A DNA stretch of 42,511 bases from contig JAUIKF010000064.1 in assembly GCA_030430575.1 (NCBI GenBank), positions 1 through 42,511 of the forward strand, in the 5' to 3' direction. The notes under the pieces were generated by a model, which was not told the DNA's origin, did no database searches, and saw nothing but the letters and a program-made list of their open reading frames with translations. This DNA comes from Bacteroidia bacterium (lineage in GTDB: Bacteria; Bacteroidota; Bacteroidia; J057). This document shows positions 2,404-8,773 of the stretch, in pieces; position 1 is the first letter of the stretch, and the number at the start of each line of letters is the position of its first letter. The position numbers and the translations under genes are program-made.

Positions 2404-3120
2404 ATGAAAACTGTATTGCATCCCGCCGCTACCCGTGGACATGCCAATCATGGTTGGCTCGACTCCCACCACACATTCAGCTTTGCCAATTACTACAACC
2501 CAGAGCGCATGAATTTTGGCGTATTGCGGGTGTTGAATGACGACGTGGTCGCCCCCAATATGGGCTTTAGTAGACACCCACACGACAACATGGAAATCAT
2601 TTCGATCCCCTTATCGGGCGACCTGGAGCACAAAGACAGCATGGGAAATACCGCTGTCATCAAGCAAGGCGATGTGCAGGTCATGAGTGCAGGCACGGGG
2701 GTATTTCACTCTGAAAAAAATAAGAATTCCGACAAGGAAGTGCGCTTTCTCCAGATTTGGGTATTCCCCAAACAAAAAGGGGTAACGCCTCGCTATGATC
2801 AGGTCGCGCTGAGCAGTATCATGGAACCCAACCAGTTCAACCAGGTGCTCTCTCCCAACCCCAACGATCAGGGGGTCTGGGTCCACCAGGATGCTTGGTT
2901 TCACATGGGCGATTTCGCCGCTGGCAAGTCGGCGAAGTACCACCTCAAGAAGCCCGGAAACGGCGTCTATGCCTTTGTATTGGAAGGGGAAGTCACGATG
3001 AACGGCCAATCCCTTGGCAAGCGCGATGGCTATGGCATGTGGGAGATGGAATCCTTTGACATGACGGCTACCACAGATGCGAAAGTATTGTTGATGGAAG
3101 TGCCTATGAACTTGGGGTAA
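2404..3120 (+). CDS. Pirin family protein (YhhW-like bicupin)
   Basis: A 238-residue bicupin of the pirin family. The N-terminal cupin keeps the four metal ligands of the family: H58 and H60 in RHPHDNMEI, H102 and E104 in GVFHSEKN. The opening segment HANHGWLDSHHTFSFANYY is the pirin signature. Characterised relatives such as E. coli YhhW bind a metal and show quercetin 2,3-dioxygenase activity in vitro, but the natural substrate is usually unknown. I chose the ATG at 2404 because homology begins there (MKTVLHPAATRGH). An in-frame start at 2359 would add 15 unrelated residues. There is no signal peptide, so it is cytoplasmic. A strong hairpin terminator follows at 3207. The AraC regulator upstream may control it. 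Confidence 0.93.
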   Translation: MKTVLHPAATRGHANHGWLDSHHTFSFANYYNPERMNFGVLRVLNDDVVAPNMGFSRHPHDNMEIISIPLSGDLEHKDSMGNTAVIKQGDVQVMSAGTGVFHSEKNKNSDKEVRFLQIWVFPKQKGVTPRYDQVALSSIMEPNQFNQVLSPNPNDQGVWVHQDAWFHMGDFAAGKSAKYHLKKPGNGVYAFVLEGEVTMNGQSLGKRDGYGMWEMESFDMTATTDAKVLLMEVPMNLG

Positions 3121-3206
3121 AGCTGTGACGCACAAGCATTAACACGCTGATTATCAGCACTTACAACTCATAACCTCAGAAGTTTATCACGCTTTACTTG
3201 AGGCTG

Positions 3207-3245
3207 AATACCCAACAGATTGAAGAAAATCTGTTGGGTATTTTT
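3207..3245 (+). terminator. Rho-independent terminator after pirin
   Basis: A perfect 15-bp stem (AATACCCAACAGATT at 3207-3221 and its complement at 3228-3242) has a 6-nt loop and runs into a T tract. It lies 87 bp after the pirin stop codon and ends that transcript. Confidence 0.85.
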
Positions 3246-3304
3246 GGGTCATCAATATCTAACAGACTTTCTTCATCCTGTTCATAAAAAATGTAAATTC
3301 CCCC

Positions 3305-3931
3305 ATGAAAAAAATAACCCCCTACCCATCCCTTCAAGAAGCCAAAGAAGCCCTTGACAACGGCGGTCGTTTCTACAATCTCCTCACCAAAGCAGATGAC
3401 GGTGTCATCTCCAAAGCCGAACTGGGAAAAGTGGCGGGCGTCTTCAACGATAAACAAAAGATGATGCTCTTCTTAACCCTTGCCATCTCTGACCTCCATG
3501 TGAATGACCAAAACGCCATTGTTCACACCTTATCAGAAGACTTGAGGGCACTTTATCATCAATATAAACCGCAGGAACTACTGCCTTCTGAAGTAGCTAC
3601 ACAAGGGGAACTTTCTTCCAATGTAATCCTTTCAGGCATTCCCAAACTCATCGAATCCAAATCCGATTTTAACGGGTTTATCATGATCCCCACCATGGCG
3701 GGGTCTGTCATGACCTTCATCATGGTGCCTATCATCGATGAATATGATGTCTATGAGCTAAAGGATGAGGCATCCGCAGCGTCGTTTACCATCGCTCATA
3801 CCAAGCGCTCCACCAAACTGCCCGAAAAAAAGATCAAGGTGGCTGGGGTACTCAAGGAATTGAAAGCGAAAGAGGACGAGGAAAAAGCTTCGAAGAAGTT
3901 TTTGGAGGCGGTGTATTATGTGGAGGGGTAA
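3305..3931 (+). CDS. Hypothetical protein
   Basis: A 208-residue protein that I do not recognise. It has no signal peptide. The N-terminal ~90 residues look helical, including an EF-hand-like but incomplete TKADDGVISKAEL. The middle (about residues 115-145) is a hydrophobic Met/Ile/Val-rich stretch, MIPTMAGSVMTFIMVPII, which could be a buried strand pair or a weak membrane-associated segment. The C-terminal ~40 residues are charged and Lys/Glu-rich, probably a helix. The ATG at 3305 lies about 60 bp after the preceding terminator, so the gene probably has its own promoter. It may be co-transcribed with the next gene 126 bp downstream, but composition changes sharply there. Confidence 0.65.
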   Translation: MKKITPYPSLQEAKEALDNGGRFYNLLTKADDGVISKAELGKVAGVFNDKQKMMLFLTLAISDLHVNDQNAIVHTLSEDLRALYHQYKPQELLPSEVATQGELSSNVILSGIPKLIESKSDFNGFIMIPTMAGSVMTFIMVPIIDEYDVYELKDEASAASFTIAHTKRSTKLPEKKIKVAGVLKELKAKEDEEKASKKFLEAVYYVEG

Positions 3932-4057
3932 GGAGCGAGTATTTTAGGTTTCAGCAAGAATTATACTTTTTGCCTCGAGTATTAACCCTCTTATAATTAA
4001 TTCAACAGCAAGCTGTTTTTAGATTTTTTTCTAGAGAAAGAGAAAAATAATTATTGT

Positions 4058-5011
4058 ATGTCAAATTACGAGAAGCTAGTTCATTTATTAGGCAGAAAAA
4101 TTGATGAGCATATGCTAAATCAATTGAAGAGAGAATTTGATTTTCTCCCTAAAAATGAAGCTACCAAACGTCATGTAGAAGGTGGATTTAAAACATATAG
4201 ACTAGCTAATAAAAAGGCAGGAATCTCCATAGAATTAATGGGGAGAAAAAGGTACCTAGCTGAATATTTAAACATTGCCAATGAAGAAAACACCCCTATT
4301 TTCAATGAGCATGACTTAATGCTTTCAGAATTAACTATTCATCCCCCAAAAACAAATAAAGACCTCCTATTTGGATTAAAAACAGGTTTTAGCTTTAAAC
4401 AAATTACTGAAGCCCTGGGGAAAACGTTGAAGTATTATGAATTTATGGAGGGCTTTAGAATTTCATATTTAGATGGCAATTATAGGGTAATATTAGCACT
4501 AGAGGAAAATTTAATATTAACCTGGATGAGGGTTAGGATTATTTCTCTCGAGAAGCATCGAGCAATTGAAAGAAGAAAAAATTTAGGTCCACAAAACCAG
4601 TTTTTAATTAAAGATAACGCACAAAAAATTTTAGATTTCACGCATAAGAAACCGACAATTATTTGGGATTCGATTTGGAAAGAAATGCTTGAAGAAAAGA
4701 CGGAAGAAGAGAAAGATGCGAGCACTTTAGCCTACTATCAAAATGAGTTTGAATTCATTGAGAAAGTTGATCCCGTGTTTGATAAGTTTCTCTTGTCGGT
4801 ATCCAAATTCTTGTCGCAAGCTGATGCAAAAGGAATTTATGAATCTACCCAAAGGTTTATCGAGGAATTAAATGCCTTAAATGAAATTTATGGTTCTATT
4901 CAGACTACAGAACGAGAAGATATATGTGACTTTATTGATAATGTGGTAAGAACTACAGGCTTCAAAGTTCACCCTGATGCTGATATTACTTATGAATGGC
5001 GAGAGTGGTAA
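4058..5011 (+). CDS. Hypothetical protein, AT-rich gene
   Basis: A 317-residue cytoplasmic protein with no recognised domain. The first third alternates helix and strand, the middle has a basic stretch (SLEKHRAIERRKN), and the C-terminal third looks helical (FDKFLLSVSKFLSQADAKG, then TTEREDICDFIDNVV) and ends in the aromatic tail DITYEWREW. That ending resembles small bacterial proteins sometimes annotated as immunity-like or of unknown function, but I cannot place it with confidence. The gene is visibly richer in A and T than its neighbours (many AAA, TTA, ATT, GAA codons), which suggests a different origin. The cupin gene starts 54 bp downstream on the same strand. Confidence 0.75.
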   Translation: MSNYEKLVHLLGRKIDEHMLNQLKREFDFLPKNEATKRHVEGGFKTYRLANKKAGISIELMGRKRYLAEYLNIANEENTPIFNEHDLMLSELTIHPPKTNKDLLFGLKTGFSFKQITEALGKTLKYYEFMEGFRISYLDGNYRVILALEENLILTWMRVRIISLEKHRAIERRKNLGPQNQFLIKDNAQKILDFTHKKPTIIWDSIWKEMLEEKTEEEKDASTLAYYQNEFEFIEKVDPVFDKFLLSVSKFLSQADAKGIYESTQRFIEELNALNEIYGSIQTTEREDICDFIDNVVRTTGFKVHPDADITYEWREW

Positions 5012-5065
5012 GTTATTTTTTTTCATCATTGTAAATGAAAATTTAAATCTTTCAAAGCCCCAAAA

Positions 5066-5698
5066 ATGACCAACAACCTCTTCGGCGTACACTATTTCCC
5101 CACCGACGTCCCTGCCACCTTTGAAAGTCGCCCAGGCGAGCTGTACCATTACAAAGCCTATATCGGCTCTCATCGCCTGGAAGTCGCACAAGGAGACTGC
5201 GTCTATTTTTTTAATGAAAGCCTGGATACGGCATTCGTAAAACGAGGTCCTTGCACGATAGAAACGGCCCATCTGGCGACGGTCATCAGGGGCTATATGC
5301 CCCCAGATGCTTCCTGCTCCTTAAGCGGCGTCACGACGCTTCCCTATATCAACGGGTGCTCCACTCGCCAGCTATTTCCGCCCATCCGGTTGGGAGACCC
5401 CACCTTGCAGCTCCTCAAAATCCCGCCCTTTAGCAAGGAGCAAGACCACCATATTCATTCCACTTCAAGGGTTGTGCTGATATTGAGTGGAAAAGGTAAA
5501 AGCATCGTGGGCGTAGCGGACAAAAACATCACAACAGCGCTAACACCAGGCATGGCTTGTATATTTGAACCGATGGCGCCCCATCATTTTGAAACCCATA
5601 CAGAAGAGCCCCTAATCGCGCTGCCGCTTCATATATTTTCCTCTATCGGCGCGATAGAGAAGAATCACCCCATGTTTAATGGGACCGTGCAGGTGTGA
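5066..5698 (+). CDS. Cupin-domain protein, first gene of a three-gene cassette
   Basis: A 210-residue protein whose C-terminal half (about residues 110-195) has the cupin pattern. A His-rich first motif DHHIHSTSR (H128, H129, H131) is followed by ILSGKG and a turn GMACIFEPMAPHH that brings in H173 and H174. These histidines could hold a metal, but the exact ligand set needs a structural model. The N-terminal ~100 residues have no recognisable motif and may be a degenerate second barrel. There is no signal peptide. The next two genes follow closely (86-bp gap, then a 20-bp overlap), so it probably works with the PP-loop enzyme of the cassette, for instance as an oxygenase, isomerase or binding protein. 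No substrate can be read from the sequence. Confidence 0.75.
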   Translation: MTNNLFGVHYFPTDVPATFESRPGELYHYKAYIGSHRLEVAQGDCVYFFNESLDTAFVKRGPCTIETAHLATVIRGYMPPDASCSLSGVTTLPYINGCSTRQLFPPIRLGDPTLQLLKIPPFSKEQDHHIHSTSRVVLILSGKGKSIVGVADKNITTALTPGMACIFEPMAPHHFETHTEEPLIALPLHIFSSIGAIEKNHPMFNGTVQV

Positions 5699-5784
5699 GG
5701 AATTATTAATTGAAAAATGGTGATTTGCCTTTGTGTTCATTCAAAATTAATCATTCACTCATTCAACATTAAACCCCATCCAAC

Positions 5785-6174
5785 ATGACCCAAGAACAAA
5801 TAGACCAAATCATCCATGACTTTGGCAAAAAATTCAATACCATGTGCGCCAACGAGCGGCGTGACTTTCTGATCAGGGAATGGACTTCCACTGATTATGA
5901 AACCGGAATAACCAGCACATATAGGAAACCTGTGACCTATAAGGTAAAAAAGAAGCGCAACAAATGGCGTATCAGAGCCGAAACCAAGGGATTTTGGATC
6001 TTCAAAAGACGATTCCCCCTATTTGACATCATTCACTCAAATGGCACCATCGAATTCAAGGGTCTGTACACCCATACTATTCCCGTATTTGAAGAGGCAC
6101 TATTAGCAGAGAAATTGGACGAATATATAGCCATTTGCAAAAGACTCCCCCCAGATGCCTTTGTCCGCTCCTAA
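5785..6174 (+). CDS. Small unknown protein overlapping the PP-loop gene
   Basis: A 129-residue protein with no recognised domain, no signal peptide and no membrane segment. It is basic in the centre (YKVKKKRNKWRIRAETKG) and rich in aromatic residues. Its last 20 bp overlap the start of the next gene in another frame, so the two are probably translationally coupled. The leader at 5738-5754 contains a 17-bp sequence (CATTCAAAATTAATCAT) that recurs just before the start codon of the gene at 28861. Possible roles are a substrate or carrier protein for the downstream ATP-dependent enzyme, or a small enzyme subunit. The sequence does not decide between these. Confidence 0.7.
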   Translation: MTQEQIDQIIHDFGKKFNTMCANERRDFLIREWTSTDYETGITSTYRKPVTYKVKKKRNKWRIRAETKGFWIFKRRFPLFDIIHSNGTIEFKGLYTHTIPVFEEALLAEKLDEYIAICKRLPPDAFVRS

Positions 6175-7147
6175 CACCCCAATTTACTACCTTTCCAAAA
6201 AGCAACTGTTCAAACAGCGCAGATGGCGAAAGCGGGCGAACCCCATTTACCTGCACACCTGCAAATTCTTTGGGGCGACGCTGATCGACCGCACAGAAAC
6301 CCTCGAAACGGGCATCCCGTTTCAGGTGCTGGATCCTACTGATAGCCTATCAAAGACAGACTTAACCTTCGCTGCCATTTGCCAACAAAGGGCTATTGAG
6401 ATCATTCATGCCACAGCTACTCAAACCATCCGCGTCCTCTGGTCCGGCGGCATCGACTCCACCGTCGCCTTGATCGCTCTGATCAAAGAGCTACGCGCCC
6501 AAGACCAACTTCACAGACTGAAAGTCTTGCTTTCCCAAGAATCCATTCAGGAATTCCCCTCCTTTTTCCACCAAGAAATCGAGCATAAACTTCCCTTTGA
6601 CCTCATCACAACCACCATCTACGACCATATCCGCGACGATGAAGTCAGCGTGACGGGCGAGCACGGCGACCAATTGTTTGGTAGTGACAAGCTAAAATAC
6701 GCTGTGCAGACAGGGGAAGCATATCGGCCTTATGCGGACGTACTGCCCTATTTTATCTCCCGAAAACTAGGCACAGAAAAGCACACCCAGGCGATCATTG
6801 ACTATATCCAGCCCCAACTGGCGCATTCCCCCGTGAAGCTCAATACCTATTATGACTATCTGTGGTGGATGAATTTTTCGTTGAAATGGCAAAACGTCTC
6901 ACTCAGGTTGGTATATGGACTGGACAAGTCGCCAGACGTCCTTGGCAAGACCTTCTTCCACTTCTTCAGAAGCCCAGACTTCCAGAACTGGTCCATTTCC
7001 AACCACAACAAAAAGATCCAGAGGGAATGGAATTCCTATAAACACGTTGCCAAGCAGTATATCCATGATTTCCATCCCAATAAGGATTACCTTATCCATA
7101 AAGAGAAGGAGCCTTCATTGAAGGAGGTATTGGTGAGGAAACTGTAG
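6155..7147 (+). CDS. Asparagine-synthetase-like PP-loop protein without the glutaminase domain
   Basis: A 330-residue member of the PP-loop (N-type) ATP pyrophosphatase fold. The phosphate-binding loop SGGIDST is at residues 97-103. A second motif, TGEHGDQLFGSD at about 167-178, corresponds to the GDGGDELFGG motif of the synthetase domain of asparagine synthetase B. Such domains activate a carboxylate as an acyl-adenylate and pass it to an amine. The N-terminal class II glutaminase domain of AsnB is absent: residues 1-85 have no Cys2 nucleophile and look unrelated. The enzyme would therefore need free ammonia or another amine donor. It shares a cassette with the small protein (20-bp overlap) and the cupin. 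It is cytoplasmic, and the product is unknown. Confidence 0.82.
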   Translation: MPLSAPNTPIYYLSKKQLFKQRRWRKRANPIYLHTCKFFGATLIDRTETLETGIPFQVLDPTDSLSKTDLTFAAICQQRAIEIIHATATQTIRVLWSGGIDSTVALIALIKELRAQDQLHRLKVLLSQESIQEFPSFFHQEIEHKLPFDLITTTIYDHIRDDEVSVTGEHGDQLFGSDKLKYAVQTGEAYRPYADVLPYFISRKLGTEKHTQAIIDYIQPQLAHSPVKLNTYYDYLWWMNFSLKWQNVSLRLVYGLDKSPDVLGKTFFHFFRSPDFQNWSISNHNKKIQREWNSYKHVAKQYIHDFHPNKDYLIHKEKEPSLKEVLVRKL

Positions 7148-7207: not shown

Positions 7208-8773
7208 TTACCACTTCACAACTCGTCTTGTTAGTGTTTGACCTTCAGCAGTTAACCTGATAAAGTAGATGCCCGTGGAAATATCATCAAAGTCCATTTG
7301 GAATTCTTGATTTCCACTGCCAAACCTATGATTTTCCGCCTTCAGGTTTCTTCCAAGGGGATCTATGATTACAATACTTATGTCTGTAGGGACAGCTAAG
7401 TTCATTTCCACATACAAATCTCCAGAAGTCGGATTAGGATAAAGGTTTAAAATTTTTCCAAACGTTACCTCTTCTAAAGCCGTAGGCAGATCCACCGTCT
7501 TTGAATTGACTTCAAAGTCTATCTCAGTGACCATCGGCTCACCGGCACTAATGGTCACGATCTGGTCTGTACTTGTCTTGCCGATCACCTCGACATGTAC
7601 CTTATAGGTGCCGTAGGCTAGGTTGGGGAAATTGTATTCGCCGTTGGCGTCGGTGAGGGTATGCGTGATGGGATTGTCCTGCATGTCATATATCAAAATG
7701 GAGACATTTTCGAGGGGGTCGCCTGGCCCTGTCTTACCCGCTCCTTGAGAGATCAGTCCGCCGATAAAGCCTGGGCCGCCAGGATTGTTTCCTTGGACAA
7801 AGTCAAAGTCTTTTCGAGCATGAGCAGTGCTGGTTACATTTATCGGGCTAGCATCTTGCCACCGAGTCACCTCTAGGCCTAATACATAGTAGGTAGGCAT
7901 TTTGGTTGCAAAATCGGGATCACTGGGAAGTGGTGCCGCCTTGAGGTAATAATTCCCGTCCGCCAAACCGGTAAACCCAAAATAACCCGTCGATACTGAA
8001 TAGGTCGTATCTATGGCTGTAAGTGTTCCTGCTACAGAATCATGAGTAATCAAATATAATATGGCGTTATCAACAGAGTCATACCGATCACCGTACTCCC
8101 AAAGTCCACAAATGGAACTTGGAAGGCTAGGCATAAAATCGACATCCATAAATTCATCATCTGTTTCATATATATTATCATGAGCATATAGCCATATTTC
8201 ATAAATGCCAGGATATCTATATTCATGTGTATAAGTGGAAGAATCAGGATACACAAGCACTTTTACACTGTCCTTGCCAGTATTAGGGCTTTGCTCTCCA
8301 GTATCCCAATCCCATTCAATAATGGGCCAATATTGGCCTGCGGGAATTGATTGATCAAAAAATGTAACTGAGAAACCATTAGGCGTAAAGCCATTAATGG
8401 TATAACTAAAATCGGCATGTAATCTTTGAGGTTGTTGCAAGCATTCATAAAGATTCATTGAATTTTGACTCTTTGACCTATTCGCAAACGCAGAGTCAAT
8501 TTGGAGATTTCCATTACAATCTATTAAAGAAGTTTTAATACCTGCTTGAGAAGAATTCCCCATTATCGTACCCTCAAAAGAACCCCAAACATCAGTATAT
8601 ATAGTATCGGAGTAAGTAAAGCCTCTTATACCAGTAACTAATACTGGATAATTCCCATAAAAATCCCAGCCATTCGGGGTAGTTACATTAACTACAAATG
8701 GAATTGTCTGGGCAGAAGCATACAAAAAACTCATTGTTAGGAGCAGTAATAGTCCAATTTTTTTCATCATCAT
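7208..8773 (-). CDS. Secreted PKD-domain protein with T9SS sorting tail
   Basis: A 521-residue exported protein. A signal peptide (residues 1-21, KKIGLLLLLTMSFLYASAQ) leads into an Ig-like region. A PKD-like domain lies at about residues 125-215 (EWDWDTGEQSP, then YTHEYRYPGIYEIWLYAHD). A carboxypeptidase-regulatory-like beta sandwich lies at about 340-425 (GGLISQGAGKTGPGDPLENV, DANGEYNFPNLAYGTYKV). The final ~80 residues are a type A T9SS sorting domain with LYPNPTSGDLYVEM, GIYFIRL and a basic end RRVVKW. It is predicted to be carried across the outer membrane and anchored to, or released from, the surface. Three consecutive ATGs occur at the start and I took the first. No enzyme motif is seen. 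Confidence 0.9.
   Translation of the reverse strand: MMMKKIGLLLLLTMSFLYASAQTIPFVVNVTTPNGWDFYGNYPVLVTGIRGFTYSDTIYTDVWGSFEGTIMGNSSQAGIKTSLIDCNGNLQIDSAFANRSKSQNSMNLYECLQQPQRLHADFSYTINGFTPNGFSVTFFDQSIPAGQYWPIIEWDWDTGEQSPNTGKDSVKVLVYPDSSTYTHEYRYPGIYEIWLYAHDNIYETDDEFMDVDFMPSLPSSICGLWEYGDRYDSVDNAILYLITHDSVAGTLTAIDTTYSVSTGYFGFTGLADGNYYLKAAPLPSDPDFATKMPTYYVLGLEVTRWQDASPINVTSTAHARKDFDFVQGNNPGGPGFIGGLISQGAGKTGPGDPLENVSILIYDMQDNPITHTLTDANGEYNFPNLAYGTYKVHVEVIGKTSTDQIVTISAGEPMVTEIDFEVNSKTVDLPTALEEVTFGKILNLYPNPTSGDLYVEMNLAVPTDISIVIIDPLGRNLKAENHRFGSGNQEFQMDFDDISTGIYFIRLTAEGQTLTRRVVKW

Follow-up and report, generated by a model that had tools for sequence, protein, structure and literature searches.

What do three adjacent genes for a cupin, a small basic protein and a PP-loop (PP) enzyme do together in a Bacteroidia bacterium, and do they form a system of their own? 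The genes lie on the forward strand of contig JAUIKF010000064.1, whose whole analysed stretch of 42,511 nucleotides is called the window here. All three are open reading frames in the sequence: the cupin gene at 5066-5698 (+, 210 aa), the small-protein gene at 5785-6174 (+, 129 aa) and the gene of a glutaminase-less, AsnB-type PP protein at 6155-7147 (+, 330 aa). The latter two share 20 nt (6155-6174, +), an overlap that an earlier sequence-only reading had noticed, calling the first protein a cupin and the second a small basic protein of no recognised family. Both assignments hold, as the 5066-5698 protein matches Cupin_2 (PF07883) with 41.1 bits against a gathering cut-off of 27.2 (E 1.5e-10), while the small protein has a pI of 9.5 and no match in Pfam, NCBIfam, PHROG or PADLOC.

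If the trio were a functional unit, its members should be neighbours elsewhere, and this is the case. The order cupin, small protein, PP protein is identical in the same-family genome G003 and in Flavilitoribacter nigricans, with 64-65% identity to the window proteins for the cupin, 39-44% for the small protein and 56-58% for the PP protein. The overlap between the last two genes has the same length of 20 nt in the three genomes (L003, 6854-6873; L004, 8001-8020, in the two further ones), and the gap between the cupin and small-protein genes measures 86 nt in the window versus 1-2 nt in the two further genomes. Chance neighbourhood was rejected because the trio is conserved in three genomes at 39-65% identity with the overlap kept. 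The PP protein was matched in 2 of 100 related genomes, the own genome counted, and both the PP protein and the cupin were found in the own genome only among 395 genomes of the phylum; the small protein occurs in 2 of 13 family genomes, again counting its own, and has so far been located only in this operon. Scanning a genome-contig collection with the single PP sequence, which detects close relatives only, returned one record, Flavilitoribacter nigricans, and a single-sequence search of plasmids with the window PP protein gave no match. These results establish the trio as genuine and diverged, and as uncommon in the genomes searched. A prophage remnant was also considered and rejected: none was seen among the eight window ORFs scanned with Pfam, and the GC contents of the cupin gene (51.8%) and the PP gene (48.8%) are near that of the window (46.6%). 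Upstream of the trio, the ORF at 4058-5011 (317 aa) has a GC content of 33.5% against the 46.6% of the window and no relative in the 12 other family genomes, and is possibly foreign in origin. The protein encoded downstream at 7208-8773 has 90 matches within its own genome.

The window PP protein matched no Pfam family at E 1, PF00733 and QueC included, while NCBIfam and PHROGs returned faint PP-loop matches only; a well-known single-gene family with an assigned role did not emerge. Asn_synthase was matched by 5 of 52 PP relatives (best E 3.4e-4), hhalign aligned the PP family with E. coli AsnB over 42 columns only at a probability of 42%, and the top PDB row by profile was ArtA (E 0.0017), with only 33 PP-loop residues covered. 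The tie to AsnB is thus weak at the sequence level, and possession of a PP-loop by itself is also compatible with roles in thiolation, tRNA and sulfate chemistry. The predicted structure (pLDDT 88.4, from a 49-row alignment) matched human asparagine synthetase with Z 15.0 over 202 residues at 3.0 A, and other AsnB-type enzymes followed with Z 14.8 (beta-lactam synthetase), 14.7 (TsnB9, at 5.0 A), 13.6 (AsnB) and 12.5 (carbapenam synthetase). GMP synthetase, NAD synthetase, LarE and ArtA scored between 8.4 and 10.0, ArtA itself 8.8. With Foldseek, the first nine rows were likewise of the AsnB type (E 1.2e-4 to 1.4e-3, TM-scores 0.36-0.47). In the partner chains the match began at residue 174-189 in 9 of the 11 best AsnB-family entries excluding TsnB9, at 160 in TsnB9 and at 139 in two carbapenam synthetase entries. 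Because of this late start, the N-terminal glutaminase half of AsnB is without a counterpart in the PP protein; the structural matches cover the synthetase half of the AsnB family only, as the sequence-only reading had supposed.

Both motifs named in that reading are in place. SGGIDST, the PP-loop at residues 97-103 (codons 6443-6463, +), is near-invariant in the family, its positions S, G, G, D, S and T each being kept in 70-75 of 75 rows. GEHGDQLFGSD at residues 168-178 (codons 6656-6688, +) is, paired by motif, the likely counterpart of GEGSDEVFGG in AsnB. In the same 75 family rows R46 is kept in 74, S97 in 74, G98 in 75, G99 in 74, D101 in 74, K316 in 69 and K318 in 70, and S102, T103 and E133 in 69-75. 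The lysines belong to a K316-E317-K318 stretch (codons 7100-7108, +). Taken from the end points of the structural alignments, residue 318 of the PP protein pairs with 443 of 1mb9 and residue 317 with 448 of 1ct9, adjoining K449, so that K318 superposes on residue 443 of beta-lactam synthetase and reaches K449 of AsnB (E. coli AsnB numbering, K at 449) by extending the alignment by one residue. We take AsnB K449 and beta-lactam synthetase K443 to have a catalytic role; no paper naming Lys443 or Lys449 was found in the literature searched. The counterpart of AsnB Glu348 is Glu in 30 of the 75 rows, Asp in 25 (acidic in 55) and Met in 10, and Asp172 of the PP protein is Asp in 59 and Asn in 12; given this variation, some viral PP copies may be altered or inactive.

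For the cupin, nine residues are invariant across 25 bacterial and viral rows (Y94, C98, Q126, H129, H131, R135, H173, H189 and H201). H129, H131 and H173 fall at cupin metal-ligand positions, which suggests a three-histidine metal site, and Arg135 stands where classic cupins hold Glu. The only solved relative at E 0.01 by profile was acireductone dioxygenase (E 5e-4), a match that says cupin and little more.

Relatives of both enzymes were found in viral contigs. A single-sequence search of these contigs with the window PP protein had no match, and profile searches of IMG/VR confirmed 126 PP stretches, with a profile built with relatives from Pseudomonas phage Cygsa01, and 432 cupin stretches, with a profile made from cupins beside viral PP genes. 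The best 80 of the 126 and the best 80 of the 432 were analysed; since many are near-identical, they are also counted as groups at 90% identity. A PP-family gene lies within 6 kb in 65 of the 80 cupin loci (best 80 of 432) and, at a threshold of 25 bits, in 42 of the 54 cupin groups formed from these, a few of the hits being low-scoring or truncated (L127, L139 and L150, with 32-53 bits). Conversely, a cupin is present in 16 of the 80 PP loci (best 80 of 126). Pooling both sides (best 80 of 126 and best 80 of 432) gave 100 groups, of which 46 have both genes, 42 the PP gene alone and 12 the cupin alone, as judged within the fetched flanks. Where both occur they share a strand in 42 of 46 groups, with the PP gene ahead of the cupin in 36 of these, and 21 of the 36 have no ORF of at least 60 aa in between. 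As a control, PhoH loci from like phages and of like total length (810 vs 833 kb) had a PP gene in 7 of 80 cases; this control is redundant and its query came from a pair-holding locus, 4 of its hits fall on contigs that also belong to the cupin set, and in three more of its contigs, L204, L213 and L219, the PP search places a PP gene elsewhere on the contig.

The cupin family extends beyond the AsnB-type partner. A profile of the trio cupin confirmed 20 viral loci with 41-59% identity to the window cupin, and the latter forms one family with the cupins beside viral PP genes (hhalign E 8.9e-19). None of these 20 loci has an AsnB-type PP gene; 17 have genes for an IbrA/DUF3440 PP-loop protein and ParB-like proteins, and of the other three, contigs L022 and L023 start within the cupin gene, and L025 holds a ParB-like gene and a partial cupin. 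Contig L041, found from the PP side, has a cupin 42% identical to that of the window adjoining an AsnB-type PP gene. Taken together, the IbrA loci, the AsnB-type loci and L041 indicate that one cupin family accompanies two kinds of PP-loop enzyme. In four of the 20 loci (L008-L011, 4643-5970), all of the same layout, the cupin is directly preceded by a gene for a stand-alone protein like class II glutaminases (with a weak match to GATase_6) and by a second PP-loop gene of the PAPS type; a glutaminase partner gene is not in the bacterial trio.

The neighbours of the viral pairs are mixed and include DNA metabolism, PhoH, deformylase and oxygenases, with no pathway named among the matches listed; the scan covered 126 of 178 proteins, picked by hand without a fixed rule and mostly omitting opposite-strand and short ORFs. 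PP loci without a cupin are often near a TRAP solute-binding protein family (23 of 100 groups) and a radical SAM protein (17 of 100); the TRAP member at the L075 locus (3073-5709) matches DctP (E 8.6e-44) and, by its start, seems to be without a signal peptide. One viral contig with PP and cupin genes carries a beta-ketoacyl synthase (PF00109, PF02801; L028, 2431-3651), and another locus has four PP-family paralogues with one cupin (L039, 1803-8257). Many of the contigs carry terminase, baseplate or other phage genes, and their viral label rests on IMG/VR. The PP and cupin families are mainly found in such uncultured viral contigs. A tblastn search of 50,697 phage records with five family members located the PP protein in a single record and no cupin, and the near-absence of the pair from these GenBank records may explain why it is missing from PHROGs. 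The sole record, Pseudomonas phage Cygsa01, has two distant PP relatives annotated as mnmA; these two genes (PP179332.1, 11421-13570) fall in the AsnB-type PP family, and the name mnmA is probably wrong for them.

In a tree built quickly from 91 rows, one of which (L106) is the window's own gene again, mislabelled as having no cupin, the bacterial PP proteins form one branch, and the nearest row is the viral contig L026 (SH-aLRT 95), in which the cupin gene directly precedes the PP gene with an overlap of about 20 nt. The label for a nearby cupin changes 12 times on the tree compared to 29.3 times in shuffles, none of 500 being as low, a result that near-copies favour. This arrangement fits an exchange between viruses and these bacteria; the tree is unrooted and gives no direction for it, and where branches are long a single support value carries limited weight.

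The small protein is predicted to consist of a long helix followed by six strands and a further, final helix. Two of five models from a three-row alignment reached pLDDT 81.6-81.7, the others 71.7, 55.0 and 54.2. Foldseek with the model gave no clear match, its top hits having E 0.47 (PDB) and 0.046 (BFVD), and the best hit by structural comparison with VIA was actin-capping protein with Z 6.9, in the middling range for this tool. No relatives were found in the viral-contig scan, and no likeness to the genes between viral PP and cupin genes was seen. For this reason the trio looks specific to these bacteria, with the small protein as a bacterial addition and the enzyme pair as the conserved core. 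The best reading of the locus is a dedicated operon in a few Bacteroidota around an enzyme pair otherwise seen in uncultured viral contigs. The sequence-only reading, which had seen here a candidate for an undescribed biosynthetic or modification system, was right in that the three genes are linked and that no named pathway or family for them was found in the libraries or literature searched; it missed that the trio is not isolated, being a small branch of an enzyme pair frequent in viral contigs.

What the pair does may be judged from the fold of the PP protein and its partner. We give about even chances to an enzyme that uses ATP to form amides and has a metal cupin as its partner, the two being common to viruses and a few Bacteroidota, which add the small protein; within this reading we are surer of the enzyme class than of the cupin step. 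As fold and residues suggest, the PP protein would bind ATP at SGGIDST and adenylate a carboxylate, K318 may assist as K449 does in AsnB and K443 in beta-lactam synthetase, and an amine or free ammonia would then attack to yield an amide. Since the PP protein has no glutaminase of its own, the nucleophile would be free ammonia or an amine substrate. The well-studied relatives with the AsnB fold usually spend ATP to activate a carboxylate that ammonia or an amine then attacks. A peptide case of this chemistry is described in the available part of one report (PMC13060819). How frequently the cupin is the partner suggests a further reaction of the same compound: the cupin may precede or follow the PP protein in acting on one small molecule or peptide, for example as an oxygenase or isomerase. 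As the weakest part of the scheme, the small protein might act in bacteria as an adaptor of the PP protein or hold its substrate. It is also conceivable, at somewhat less than even chances, that a two-gene pathway in hundreds of viral contigs leads to a novel amide or nitrile compound or modification, and that a few Bacteroidota keep a chromosomal operon of it with an adaptor.

A role of the small protein as the substrate would make the locus RiPP-like: the protein or its conserved C-terminus, LPxxAF[VI]xS, would be the substrate or a recognition protein, and the PP enzyme would amidate or cyclise it. We hold this to be unlikely. The 20-nt overlap couples the two genes in three genomes and the end of the small protein is conserved; this end lies inside the overlap, however, where the start of the PP gene partly dictates its sequence, so that conservation there is an ambiguous guide to function. 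AsnB-like enzymes do amidate or nitrilate peptide C-termini, according to the part of the source available (PMC13060819), and at some viral PP genes the neighbours are tail or baseplate genes together with a small ORF (as read from the ORFs in L026 and from the annotation in Cygsa01), but the named families around viral pairs are mostly not tail genes among the matches listed. Moreover, structure prediction for the small protein gives a folded domain and not a leader-core peptide, and relatives of this protein were not found with the viral pairs, neither in the contig scan nor among the genes between the partners.

Modification of nucleic acids or nucleotides, as by the PP-loop enzymes QueC, MnmA, TilS and DndC, is a still less probable account. 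It could draw on the mnmA annotation of the Cygsa01 copies, a weak PHROG likeness of the PP protein to a QueC-like family, the ParB-IbrA genes that are the other partners of the cupin, and an IbrA-type protein of L007 that matches DndC models in part (E 9.8e-10). The fold nevertheless favours the AsnB branch, with Z 14-15 versus values under 10 for MesJ (TilS) and LarE. QueC has a zinc cysteine set and MnmA a cysteine pair, whereas the window PP protein has two cysteines only, at positions 36 and 76, with neither a QueC-type set nor an MnmA-type pair apparent.

The mostly viral core pair and its rare, scattered occurrence in the bacteria searched could also suit defence or counter-defence, in which the pair shared with viruses would target an infection signal or stop phages; we find this improbable, as PADLOC matched none of the three proteins and Pfam revealed no defence or prophage family among the eight window ORFs. 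We give equally little credence to a cupin that is a ligand sensor only, beside a PP protein acting alone, since its weak likeness to AraC_binding (E 0.015) and the lack of a cupin in the flanks of 42 of the 100 viral groups are set against a Pfam scan that matched no DNA-binding domain in the cupin, the three conserved histidines at metal positions and the invariance of Cys98, Arg135, His189 and His201.

Several known systems resemble the putative amide-forming pair in part. With asparagine synthetase B (PF00733) the PP protein shares the fold of the synthetase half, the SGGxDS loop and the position of the late lysine. It differs in that the class II glutaminase (Cys1) half is missing, the protein starting at the overlap with the small-protein gene, in a C-terminal half of its own with WW..F..KW and KxK..S signatures, and in that the window protein has no Pfam match. 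Beta-lactam and carbapenam synthetases have the fold in common with it (Z 14.8 and 12.5, with residue 443 on K318), but keep an N-terminal Ntn-type domain and reside in beta-lactam clusters. The nitrile synthetases ArtA and PesC are alike in ATP-dependent activation of a carboxylate or amide by a PP-loop; their partner genes differ, and the profile match to ArtA comprises 33 residues with a structural score of 8.8. Lasso-peptide cyclases would call for a precursor, an RRE and a protease, none of which was matched by Pfam among the eight window ORFs, although short ORFs could escape. The window cupin has the HxH and later H of a classic metal cupin, with Arg135 in place of Glu. In the viral ParB-IbrA (DUF3440)-ParB loci the same cupin family adjoins a PP-loop enzyme (17 of 20 loci), which is of the PAPS-reductase type, unlike the AsnB-type protein of the trio. 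Finally, in the peptide operons named cupin-MtRS-AsnSyn a metal cupin lies close to ligases that form peptides, and some of these operons include a PP-loop protein related to AsnB; at their centre, in the part of the source available, are a paralogue of methionyl-tRNA synthetase and a lysine N6-monooxygenase (PMC2922099); neither was matched by Pfam among the eight window ORFs.

In the literature searched, nothing was found on a pairing of a cupin with an AsnB-type PP-loop protein. The PP branch is new relative to the named families, and it might belong to a pathway not yet described. Known products of AsnB-type enzymes are asparagine, beta-lactams, lasso knots, peptide amides and nitriles. 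That a glutaminase-less branch of them travels with one cupin family in many uncultured viral contigs points to a chemical step that viruses often carry, unnamed in the libraries used and scarce in phage records, and the bacterial operon is a compact version of this pair.
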